From Methanoplanus endosymbiosus (lineage in GTDB: Archaea; Halobacteriota; Methanomicrobia; Methanomicrobiales; Methanomicrobiaceae), in assembly GCF_024662215.1 (NCBI RefSeq), contig NZ_CP096115.1:2678935-2742934 (forward strand): DNA of 64,000 bases. Direction: 5' to 3'. Under the pieces are notes generated by a model that was given only the letters and a program-made list of their open reading frames with translations, searched no databases and had not been told where the DNA came from. Of this stretch, positions 3,203 to 6,827 are shown piece after piece; the first letter of the stretch is position 1, and every line of letters starts with the position of its first letter. The position numbers and the translations under genes were made by a program.

Positions 3203-4825
3203 TCAGGGCATCATGATCTTCATATCTTCCTCAACCGTGGTGTTCGCCCGGATGCCGAAGTTTTCAACAAGCACATTCAGGACTGCCGGAGACACAAATG
3301 CCGGAAGTTTTGGCCCAAGTGTGATGTCCTTTACACCGAGGTGCAGGAGTGAGAGCAGAACAAGCACAGCTTTCTGTTCATACCAGGCAATATTGTATGA
3401 TACCGGAAGTCCGTTTAAGTCAGTTCCAAAGGCATCAGCAAGAGCCTTTGCAATTACCACAAGTGAGTAGCAGTCATTGCACTGTCCTGCATCAATGACC
3501 CTCGGAATTCCGCCTATGTCACCGAGATCAAGGTTATTATACCTGTACTTCGCACATCCGGCAGTGAGAATTACTGCATCCTGTGGCAGTGCTTTTGCAA
3601 ATTCAGTATAATATTCCCTCTCTTTCTGCCTGCCGTCACAGCCGGCCATAACAATAAATCTCTTAATCTGCCCCTGCTTAACGGCATCAATCACTGCATC
3701 AGCAATTGAAAGGACTGCATGGTGTGCACATCCGGTAATGAGTTCATCAGTGTAACCTTCACCCTTAACGGTGATGTCATCCGGAGAACTGCACTTCTTT
3801 GCATGCTCAATCAGGTCAGAAAAGTCCTTGTTGCCTTCAGAGTCCTCAGTGATGTGTTTCACGCCGGAAAAACCGGTTGGGCCTGTGGTGTAAACCCTGT
3901 TAATATAAGATTCAGCCGGTGGCACAAGGCAGTTTGTTGTAACAAGCACAGGGCCGTTGAAACTCTCAAACTCCTGTCTCTGGTGCGGCCATGATCCGCC
4001 GTAATTTCCAATGAGGTTGCTGTACTTCTTCAGGCCTGGATATGCATGTGCGGGAAGCATCTCCCCGTGGGTATAGACATCAACACCTGAATTTTCGGTC
4101 TGGACTAACAGCTGCTCAAGGTCTTTTAGGTCATGTCCTGTAATAAGAATGCCCGGTTTGCTTCCGGAAGATGTTGAAACGGTTGTTATCTCCGGGTTTC
4201 CATATGCTGTGGTGTTTGCCCTGTCAAGACCCTCTAACACCTTAACTCCAATCTCACCGCATTTAAGCACCCATCCGACCATCTCATCAATACTGAGATC
4301 AGCAGCTGTTGACGCAAGTGCATCCTCCATGAAGTCTGTTACTTCCTTATCCTCAGATCCAAGGGCAACAACGTGGTAGTAATAGGCACCAACACCCTTT
4401 AAGCCGTAGATGAGAAGTTCGCGAAGTGATCTTACATCCTCGTTTTCCGTTGCTAAAACTCCGTTCTCAGAGCCCTTCTTTATTGCATCTTCGATATTTT
4501 CTGGTTTCCATACAGATATTTCATCGCTGCATCCCGTTTCCGGCAGAGAATCCCTGATCTCAACTGCCTTTGTTATAAGTGAATAGAGCCTCTCATTGTC
4601 AAAGTTGACATTCGTAAGTGCGGCAAAGAGTGACTCTGCAATCAGATTGCCTGCCTCTCTGCTCTCCTTACCGTCTTTCCGGGCCTCAATATTTCTGAGT
4701 GACAGCCCTTTTATGGCATATATCAGGCAGTCCTGGAGCGCTGCGGTTGACTCATCCTTGCCACATACTCCCTTAACTGTACATCCGCATCCTTTTGCGG
4801 CCTCTTCACACTGGTAACAGAACAT
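3203..4825 (-). CDS. hcp: Hydroxylamine reductase / hybrid cluster protein
   Basis: 540 residues from the ATG at 4825, chosen because GGAGAG lies 8-10 bases upstream and the protein then begins MFCYQCEE as in the family; an in-frame ATG at 4867 would add 14 residues lacking family character. N-terminal cysteines C3, C6, C15 and C21 bind the cubane cluster. Later motifs ([53 protein letters not shown]) supply the His, Glu and Cys ligands of the Fe-S-O hybrid cluster. Hcp proteins reduce hydroxylamine in vitro and act on NO as nitrosative-stress enzymes. The HxlR regulator is divergent across an 87-bp shared promoter region. Confidence 0.95.
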
Positions 4826-4851
4826 AGTTTTGTCTCTCCTTTGTATATTTA

Positions 4852-4890
4852 TGATACAAAATATCATTTTGATACTAAATTATAAATACC
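4852..4890. promoter_or_regulatory. Shared hcp/HxlR promoter with repeated TGATAC boxes
   Basis: The divergent intergenic region holds TGATAC at 4852-4857 and again at 4870-4875, an 18-bp step, with ATATCA between them at 4861-4866, and a TATA-like TATAAATACC at 4881-4890. The TATA element lies about 29 bases before the ATG at 4913, so the regulator message is probably leaderless; no Shine-Dalgarno is seen there. The TGATAC boxes are candidate operators for the HxlR protein. Operator function is inferred from position and repetition only. Confidence 0.45.
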
Positions 4891-4912
4891 AATGAGTTTC
4901 TGAAACTATACT

Positions 4913-5272
4913 ATGCATAAGGACTGCACAGTGTACAAAACTGCCCTGTACCTGACGAAGAAATGGGCTTTACTGATAATATTTGAACTCTACAAAGGGG
5001 AGAACTATACCCGGAGGTTTTCAGAGCTGAAAAGTTCACTTAACGGAATAACCTCAAAAGTCCTCTCACAGCGACTTAAAGAACTTGAAGAGGAAGGTCT
5101 TGTCGGCAGAAGGGTCGATGCCGGAAGTTTCCCTGTTAAGAGTGAATACTATCTTACAGAGAGTGGTGTCGGGCTTATAGATGTGATAAAACATCTCAAA
5201 GTGTGGGCGCTTAAGTACAAAATTGACAACATAGACTGTGGCAACCAGAACTGCAAAGACTGTATCCTGTAA
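4913..5272 (+). CDS. HxlR-family winged-helix regulator with cysteine-rich tail
   Basis: 119 residues with the full HxlR (MarR-like DUF24) pattern: N-terminal C5, KKWALLIIFEL, the RFSEL..GIT.KVLSQRLKELEEEGLV recognition helix region, and the wing before YYLTESG. The C-terminus carries CGNQNCKDC, three cysteines in a C-x4-C-x2-C arrangement. With C5 this offers four possible ligands for a metal or Fe-S cluster, or redox-active thiols. It is transcribed away from hcp and is the obvious candidate to control it. Founding HxlR regulators respond to formaldehyde; many relatives sense quinones or redox state. What this one senses is inference. Confidence 0.88.
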   Translation: MHKDCTVYKTALYLTKKWALLIIFELYKGENYTRRFSELKSSLNGITSKVLSQRLKELEEEGLVGRRVDAGSFPVKSEYYLTESGVGLIDVIKHLKVWALKYKIDNIDCGNQNCKDCIL

Positions 5273-5327: not shown

Positions 5328-5915
5328 ATGCCTCAGGAATATTCTGACCTACGCGAAGCTAAGAACAAAGTCCGCGACATTATGCGAAACAGGCGCGATT
5401 CACTCACGCCTGAGGAAAAAAAGGTTAAAGGTGAAGCAATATGCAGCCATTTCTTTACACTTGTAAAACCGGGCCAGACCGTCATGGGCTTCTCATCAAA
5501 GGACATTGAGGTTGATACAACCCCGCTTCTTCAGAGACTTCTTGATGAGGGATATGACCTTGTTGTCCCTATCATTGTAAAGGAAGATTACAGCCTCAGG
5601 CTCTCATACTTAAAGGATCTCTCACACCTCGTGCCAAGCACATTCAATGTCCCTGAACCAATAGGAAACGAGATCCCTGTACCTGAGGGAGCAGTTGATG
5701 TGGTAATCCTCCCAATGCTTGGGTTTGACAGGCGTGGCGGCAGGCTTGGATACGGCTCAGGCTACTATGACAGATTCCTTGAGAAAAATCCGGATGTCAC
5801 AAAGATTGCACTTGCATTTGCCTGCCAGGAAGCAGAAGAACTGCCGCTTGAAGATAATGATGTCTTTATGGACTATATCGTAACCGAAGACGGCGTAATC
5901 AAAACCGGAAACTGA
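5328..5915 (+). CDS. 5-formyltetrahydrofolate cyclo-ligase family protein
   Basis: 195 residues from the ATG at 5328; the open frame runs further upstream into the HxlR gene but family similarity starts at about MPQEYSDLREAKNKVRD. Diagnostic features are the basic N-terminal helix ending MRNRRDSL and the nucleotide/pterin-binding loop RRGGRLGYGSGYYDRFL. The family converts 5-formyl-THF to methenyl-THF with ATP. It ends 12 bases before ftr, which makes 5-formyl-tetrahydromethanopterin, so a role on the methanopterin carrier (salvage of a misformylated or stalled form) is plausible but inferred. Confidence 0.85.
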   Translation: MPQEYSDLREAKNKVRDIMRNRRDSLTPEEKKVKGEAICSHFFTLVKPGQTVMGFSSKDIEVDTTPLLQRLLDEGYDLVVPIIVKEDYSLRLSYLKDLSHLVPSTFNVPEPIGNEIPVPEGAVDVVILPMLGFDRRGGRLGYGSGYYDRFLEKNPDVTKIALAFACQEAEELPLEDNDVFMDYIVTEDGVIKTGN

Positions 5916-5927
5916 GGAGGAAATACC

Positions 5928-6827
5928 ATGCAGATAGAAGGCACTGAAATTGTTGATACCTATGCGGAGGCATTTCCTATATGGCTCTCACGGATTATCA
6001 TAACAGCAGATTCACTGAAGCTTGCAATGGTGGCTGCAACTGAGGCCACCGGATTTGCAACCTCAACGATAATGTGCCCGTGTGAGGCAGGAATTGAGAG
6101 ATACTATTCACCATCTGAAACACCGGACGGGAGGCCCGGTGTATCTATATTCATCTGTACTGCCAGAAAGAGTATGAAGGAGAATGTCTCTGCCAGAATC
6201 TCACAGTGTGTGCTTACAGCCGCAACCGCATCCGCATTTGACGGATTTCCGGATGCCAGAACAAGGTACCACATTAAGATGCACTACTTCGGCGACTCAT
6301 ATGAGAGCCGCTGCATAGTCGGAGGCAGAAAATGCTGGAAGATTCCGGTGATGGAAGGCGATTACATCGGAGAGGAGTCATTCGGTGCAGTAAAAGGTAT
6401 TGCAGGCGGAAATTTCCTGATAATGGGTCGTGATAAGCAGTCTGCACTCTCGGCCGCACAGGCTGCAATTGAGGCAATTAAAAACCGTGAAGGTATTATA
6501 ACCGGATTTCCGGGCGGGATTGTTGCAAGCGGGTCAAAGGTTGCAAGCAAAAATTACAGATTCCCTATGTCTGCAAGTACAAACCACAGGTTCTGCCCGA
6601 CTCTGAAGGATAAAATAGAAGATTCCCTCGTCCCTGACGGTGTGAATTCAATATATGAGATTGTGATAAACGGCACTGATGCCAAAGTTATCGAAGATGC
6701 CACAAGGGACGGCATTTTGGCGGCAGTGAAGGAAGATGGGGTTCTCTTCATAGATGCCGGCAATTATGACGGCAAACTCGGCACTCATAACTTTTACCTC
6801 CATGAGATCCTGAAGGATTCAGTCTGA
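5928..6827 (+). CDS. ftr: Formylmethanofuran:tetrahydromethanopterin N-formyltransferase
   Basis: 299 residues, normal family length, colinear with Ftr throughout: N-terminal EGTEIVDTYAEAFPIW, the central FDGFPDARTRYHIKMHYFGD region, GGNFLIMGRD, and C-terminal LHEILKDSV. It catalyses the second step of CO2-dependent methanogenesis, moving the formyl group from methanofuran to N5 of tetrahydromethanopterin; the enzyme is soluble and salt-stabilised in known cases. A strong GAGGAGG ribosome site sits just upstream and the cyclo-ligase gene ends 12 bases before it, so the two probably share a transcript. Confidence 0.97.
   Translation: MQIEGTEIVDTYAEAFPIWLSRIIITADSLKLAMVAATEATGFATSTIMCPCEAGIERYYSPSETPDGRPGVSIFICTARKSMKENVSARISQCVLTAATASAFDGFPDARTRYHIKMHYFGDSYESRCIVGGRKCWKIPVMEGDYIGEESFGAVKGIAGGNFLIMGRDKQSALSAAQAAIEAIKNREGIITGFPGGIVASGSKVASKNYRFPMSASTNHRFCPTLKDKIEDSLVPDGVNSIYEIVINGTDAKVIEDATRDGILAAVKEDGVLFIDAGNYDGKLGTHNFYLHEILKDSV

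Follow-up and report, generated by a model that had tools for sequence, protein, structure and literature searches.

Why does a gene of the 5-formyl-THF cyclo-ligase (MTHFS) family, FCL, stand directly in front of a gene of the formylmethanofuran:H4MPT formyltransferase (Ftr) family in the methanogen Methanoplanus endosymbiosus? FCL is a standard enzyme of folate metabolism that returns N5-formyl groups to the active pool, 5-formyl-THF being usually a dead-end storage form, and the chemistry of Ftr, as established for H4MPT, yields the N5-formyl isomer. A preliminary description of the locus had taken methanopterin as the C1 carrier of methanogens and had proposed that FCL performs an ATP-driven repair or bypass on the 5-formyl-H4MPT made by Ftr, parallel to the folate enzyme. 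We analysed the locus within a window of 64,000 nucleotides (contig NZ_CP096115.1, positions 2,678,935 to 2,742,934) from a one-contig genome of 3.16 Mb (G000), which carries one FCL and two ftr genes, and across a class sample of 149 Methanomicrobia genomes taken from a larger group.

Organization of the FCL-ftr2 locus

In the window, FCL runs from the ATG at 5328 to the TGA at 5915 on the forward strand (5328..5915; PF01812, TIGR02727), encodes 195 aa and belongs to the pair-linked clade described below. It is followed on the same strand by ftr2 (5928..6827; PF01913/PF02741, TIGR03119), which encodes a diverged Ftr paralog of 299 aa. Pfam and NCBIfam matches to both genes, together with the spacing of 12 nt from the FCL stop to the start of ftr2, confirm the placement of a cyclo-ligase gene 12 bases upstream of ftr given in the preliminary description. 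A ribosome-binding-like GGAGG (5916..5920, forward strand), read from the sequence by eye, starts immediately 3' of the FCL stop codon and precedes the ATG of ftr2, and translation of ftr2 is likely coupled to that of FCL.

Just upstream of FCL lies a gene for an HxlR-family regulator (4913..5272, forward strand; PF01638), which holds the same position in both fetched genomes of the window's genus and stays outside the wider FCL-ftr2 pair. A gene for a hybrid-cluster protein of the hydroxylamine reductase family is divergent from this regulator gene (3203-5272 for the two), an arrangement that is repeated in G039, the other fetched genome of the genus. No thiC was seen beside the pair in the window, and a sigma-70 promoter scan, made with a tool whose coverage does not include archaeal promoters, gave a count at chance level.

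FCL resembles bacterial 5-FCL enzymes

The FCL of the window matches PF01812 with 112.7 bits and the equivalog model TIGR02727, '5-formyltetrahydrofolate cyclo-ligase', with 142.4 bits (cut-off 84.9). Its AF2 model (pLDDT 87.7) has as best fold match the 5-FCL of B. anthracis (2jcb, TM 0.86), and human MTHFS (3hy6) is matched with a TM of 0.82. Residues K12, R16, E61, G141, G143, G145, Y146, Y147 and D148 are invariant in 14/14 aligned FCLs; the conserved N-terminal K and R, the E61-type residue and the GxGxGYYD loop are what we take to be the signature features of 5-FCLs. FCL thus has the family model, the fold and the conserved motifs in common with MTHFS/YgfA (EC 6.3.3.2), from which it differs by its archaeal host and by its fixed partner, an Ftr paralog.

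On the same equivalog model, one lone FCL (one with no ftr beside it; locus L084, 146 bits) and two FCLs of family f16 reach 146 to 165 bits. Seven divergent archaeal PF01812 proteins, compared over their matched regions only, stay between 27 and 47 bits, below the cut-off of 84.9. They come from three families (f9, f13 and f23) that we infer to be Archaeoglobus-like and haloarchaeal, and these homologs would be of a thiamin type. The FCL of the window, judged by its sequence, is of the bacterial 5-FCL type.

The ftr2 product is a second, diverged Ftr

Ftr2 carries both Ftr lobes, PF01913 and PF02741, is homologous over its full length to 1m5s (E-value 2e-103) and scores 375.7 bits on the TIGR03119 equivalog, whose cut-off is 292.6. 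It has 55% identity with the remaining Ftr of G000, which is encoded at C1:2105680-2106555 and has its place in the tree with the class Ftr1. Since that other copy falls among the class Ftr1, the candidate explanation that the ftr of the window encodes the main Ftr was dropped. Ftr2 itself lies outside the main-Ftr clade, in a clade of its own with support of 100/100. Caution is needed with the annotation, as the curated TIGR03119 model gives this second copy the name of the methanogenesis enzyme.

Residues conserved in Ftr2 were identified in a set of 45 Ftr2 rows, including near-duplicates from the same contigs and the window itself, compared with 58 other Ftr. Ftr2 has H220 where 51/58 of the other Ftr carry E, an inserted P213 that is absent from 57/58 of them, and further conserved changes at C129, Y120, M118, S92 and S73. 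Known Ftr structures (PDB 1ftr, 2fhj and 1m5s) show full-length homology to Ftr2, which passes the same equivalog cut-off, and Ftr2 departs from known Ftr by its separate clade, the E to H change at position 220 and the inserted P213. The structure model of Ftr2 is poor (pLDDT 58.6).

Ftr2 and Ftr1 also have many invariant residues in common, including E244, and since Ftr2 passes the Ftr cut-off as well, it may still use H4MPT. It could then be an H4MPT-using Ftr isozyme for particular growth conditions, with FCL devoted to ordinary folate repair and the two genes paired only for joint expression. This explanation is possible, and would also fit the many genomes in which FCL has no ftr alongside; we return to it below. 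A second Ftr besides the main one is not peculiar to this class: Chadwick 2022 (PMC9012536) mentions an uncharacterised one in ANME, Archaeoglobales, Methanopyrus and Methanothermobacter, likewise alongside a main Ftr, as in G000.

Distribution of the pair

Among the 149 Methanomicrobia genomes, FCL was found in 141 and ftr in 143, with two ftr copies in 41. A same-strand pair of FCL and second-type ftr is kept in 42/149 genomes, a frequency of linkage across methanogens that the preliminary description had proposed to check; the adjacency is therefore not due to chance, and a one-genome accident was dropped as its source. The 42 genomes represent 11 genera and four families, so that the adjacency is not confined to one genus or family; confinement to this lineage is what that description had named as counting against its proposal. 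Carriers include Methanoregula, Methanocalculus and Methanomicrobium, and the non-carriers examined include Methanocorpusculum (g18) and Methanoculleus (g9). By coordinates, the second copy immediately follows FCL, in the same orientation, in 40/41 genomes with two ftr. The sole exception, G114, has both copies in the Ftr1 clade, and two drafts (G100 and G145) have the pair with one detected ftr each. For single-ftr genomes, absence of the pair was judged by visual inspection of contig numbers and coordinates, with fetched regions added for G043, G050, G129 and G146. FCL without an adjoining ftr is found in 99 genomes (the 141 with FCL less the 42 pairs).

When starts are assigned by aligning the proteins with that of the window, the gap within the pair is 2 to 21 nt in 24/31 fetched pairs, the rest being -29 (three pairs), -4, 46, 96 and 146. 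The pair is present at 15/53 named methanomicrobial FCL loci and at 0/27 bacterial ones. A wider common operon around the pair was considered and dropped, since the neighbours vary between families; the loci compared for this were those whose FCL the simple gene caller found, which leaves out 5/31 linked and 2/15 lone loci.

In the phylum sample, which is without Methanobacteria or Methanopyri, FCL was found in 98/216 genomes. A tblastn search of 20 FCL regions, some of which ended at contig ends, from 19 of the 59 FCL-bearing genomes outside the class found no Ftr near FCL, unlike the Ftr2 of the window. A literature search of titles and abstract openings, covering few subscription papers, returned no paper on the FCL-ftr pair.

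The two genes share a common history

Trees were built with 47 Ftr and 40 FCL. The 19 pair-linked ftr form one clade against the 28 ftr not beside FCL, with support of 100/100, and the 19 linked FCL form one clade against the 21 lone FCL, with support of 95/99. The Ftr2 clade persists when 15 Ftr from outside the class are added (24 of 53 rows, 100/100). In one tree the sole ftr of G137, a genome with a lone FCL, adjoins the Ftr2 clade (C1:2799412-2799834, locus L079; support 86/91), which blurs the limit of that clade. Distances between FCLs agree with those between Ftr2 proteins beyond what is accounted for by Ftr1 (partial r 0.75, with 0/5000 permutations as high), in a test on 13/42 pair genomes, seven of them from one family.

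Lone FCL genes occupy another setting. Within the fetched 3 kb, CDC48 is present at 31/38 named lone loci and thiC at 17/38, and thiC is near FCL at 7/13 readable lone loci. A block of thiC, FCL and CDC48, often with a radical-SAM gene, recurs in Methanomicrobia that have no pair (for example L131 1657-6018 and L149 1590-5453); two more genes of this block looked HSP20-like and FBPase by eye, the first having no Pfam match.

The CDC48 sites of 15 pair genomes were also inspected. At least one other gene of the lone block still adjoins CDC48 in 13/15 of them, and thiC does so in 8/15. In those 13 genomes no FCL was found at CDC48 (E<=1e-3) in the fetched flank, which extends no further than 1.5 kb before CDC48 and is far shorter at some loci, and none of the 15 has a second FCL. 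It appears that the FCL of the pair took over from the lone FCL, in which case paired and lone FCLs most likely share one function. The rule of one FCL per genome has exceptions, seen in G056, in the pair genome G063, with a second weak PF01812 match of 37 bits, and in the lone-FCL genome G048, with an FCL fragment. Besides a pair that is close to the one in genus g6, G056 has, elsewhere, a broken lone FCL (C1:362877-363397, locus L067) in two overlapping frames between a radical-SAM gene and CDC48.

The recurrence of thiC raises the question of whether FCL is a thiamin-linked COG0212 paralog rather than a 5-FCL. Pribat reportedly dealt with COG0212 and thiamin in 2011. Plant COG0212 is tied to THIC through expression (PMC4120688), and the nearness of thiC to lone FCLs at 17/38 named and 7/13 readable loci points the same way. 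However, the FCL of the window falls within the true 5-FCLs by TIGR02727, not outside them as a COG0212 type would, and it is the seven divergent archaeal homologs, over their matched region, that fail this model. Moreover, thiC remains beside CDC48 at the old site in 8/15 pair genomes though FCL has gone. We therefore regard a thiamin-linked identity as highly improbable.

These data also bear on the explanation by an H4MPT-using isozyme and independent folate repair. Joint expression alone poorly explains why 40/41 second ftr copies are at FCL across four families whose other neighbours differ, and it accounts poorly for the co-divergence of FCL and Ftr2 and for the replacement of the lone FCL by that of the pair. 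The FCL-ftr2 pair is a genuine evolutionary unit, and it is well supported that its two genes work together.

Folate and H4MPT enzymes in the host genomes

FolD was found above cut-off in 130/149 genomes and in none of the 14 genomes of Methanocorpusculum (g18). Formate-THF ligase (Fhs) was above cut-off in 13/149, all of them in this genus (for example G037 C1:247204-248862). The two enzymes are mutually exclusive among the 149 genomes, 13 having Fhs without FolD, 130 FolD without Fhs, six neither and none both, and it seems that Methanocorpusculum exchanged one route by which C1 units enter folate for another. FolD is present in every one of the 42 pair genomes, and Fhs is above cut-off in 0/42 of them. 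This match has a hypergeometric p of 0.0011, uncorrected for phylogeny, and is weak because the background with FolD and without Fhs is common (130/149). There are 84 genomes with FolD that have a lone FCL and no Ftr2.

SHMT was present in 59/59 and PurH in 58/59 of the genomes searched for them (59 of the 149, 30 with the pair), PurH being undetected in one pair genome, G098. FolD, PurH and SHMT are all encoded in G000, where the FolD match at 1192551 has the SHMT match (1190947-1192089) a short way upstream of it. A second, lower-scoring SHMT was observed in two genomes without the pair (G032 C27:74040-75167 and G075 C1:1599075-1600190). From the counts of FolD, SHMT and PurH a folate pool is expected, and is likely present in the class Methanomicrobia; the premise of the preliminary description that methanogens carry C1 units on methanopterin, if meant as the sole carrier, fails on the same counts. 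Since FCL passes the bacterial-type 5-FCL model and its host genomes carry folate enzymes, 5-formyl-THF is its likely substrate. SHMT forms 5-formyl-THF in a side reaction, and FCL would clear it; as SHMT was found in every genome examined, 5-formyl-THF is to be expected, which favours an ordinary repair role of FCL beside an H4MPT-using Ftr2.

Brown 2011 (PMC3261824) assigns PurN and PurH to Methanomicrobiales, where THF is expected, and describes labelling in Methanospirillum hungatei as consistent with a THF carrier. According to the same paper, purN and purT are missing from four 'Methanomicrobiales', but the species named are Methanobacteriales.

Turning to H4MPT, the link between cyclo-ligase and ftr in C1 chemistry proposed in the preliminary description stood as far as the genes are concerned, being real and recurrent, and did not stand in its methanopterin premise, if meant as above, folate enzymes being present. 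Mch closes 5-formyl-H4MPT without ATP. It was found in 41/42 pair genomes, the draft G118 being the one where it was not detected; an ATP-driven cyclisation of 5-formyl-H4MPT would therefore be redundant, and an ATP-driven H4MPT bypass looks unnecessary. A second, lower-scoring Mch was observed in both genomes of the window's genus (G000 C1:458004-458930 and G039 C1:1872820-1873746) and in G063.

It is nonetheless conceivable that FCL acts on 5-formyl-H4MPT made by Ftr2, in an ATP-driven bypass or repair that would mirror the folate enzyme. The known product type of its neighbour Ftr is 5-formyl-H4MPT, and a comparable proposal has been published for a different archaeal homolog: Kaster 2011 (PMC3087415) suggests that MTH204 of Methanothermobacter, a putative 5-formyl-THF cycloligase, is a 5-formyl-H4MPT cyclohydrolase. 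MTH204 is an archaeal FCL homolog, as is the FCL of the window; the latter passes the 5-FCL model, which the seven divergent archaeal homologs (MTH204 not among them) fail. Besides Mch, of which G000 has two copies, what speaks against an H4MPT substrate is the bacterial 5-FCL type of FCL, the 99 genomes that carry FCL without Ftr2, the folate enzymes of the hosts, and the fact that two ftr-bearing families (f8 and f22) have no genome among the 98/216 of the phylum sample with FCL. Taken with these points, we consider action on 5-formyl-H4MPT unlikely.

A possible bridge between methanofuran and folate

We tentatively propose that Ftr2 and FCL form a functional unit around 5-formyl-THF, bridging the methanofuran and folate C1 pools. 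Provided that 5-formyl-THF is what FCL acts on, the constant pairing of the two genes is explained most simply if Ftr2, too, makes or uses this compound. Ftr2 would catalyse formyl exchange between formyl-methanofuran and THF, at N5 of the latter, FCL would spend ATP in closing 5-formyl-THF to 5,10-methenyl-THF, and FolD would convert methenyl-THF to methylene-THF or 10-formyl-THF for biosynthesis. In this manner the methanofuran C1 pool, which is derived from CO2, and the folate pool used for biosynthesis would be joined by the pair, in genomes where formate-THF ligase was not found; operating in the opposite direction, Ftr2 would give 5-formyl-THF a second way out. The specificity of Ftr2 for THF and the direction of flow are conjectural. 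More specifically, though with less probability, the pair may be an undescribed bridge in which CO2-derived formyl groups are loaded onto N5 of THF and activated with ATP to methenyl-THF, replacing formate-THF ligase. The loading role suits the pair genomes, since all 42 have FolD and none has Fhs. The bridge would not be essential, because serine can already supply the folate pool through SHMT and FolD, and because 84 genomes with FolD and a lone FCL do without Ftr2.

A connection between two C1 pools has a parallel in methylotrophs, in which the H4MPT and THF pools are linked via formate by FtfL. The proposed bridge would likewise connect two C1 pools, and would differ from the FtfL link by its N5-formyl transfer and in that formate-THF ligase was not detected in the pair genomes. 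PMC9012536 describes methylotrophs as having both C1 pools. For Ftr2 and FCL, the THF bridge is our leading, unproven reading, and the combination of an H4MPT-using isozyme with folate repair comes close to it.

Even if the bridge is false, two Ftr clades are now separated in Methanomicrobia, the second being located at FCL in 40/41 two-copy genomes, and the question can now be addressed with purified FCL and Ftr2 and the two pterins. If it is true, two C1 carriers thought to be separate in methanogens would be joined by a two-enzyme bridge, and 5-formyl-THF would gain a productive role, as an on-pathway intermediate of C1 assimilation.
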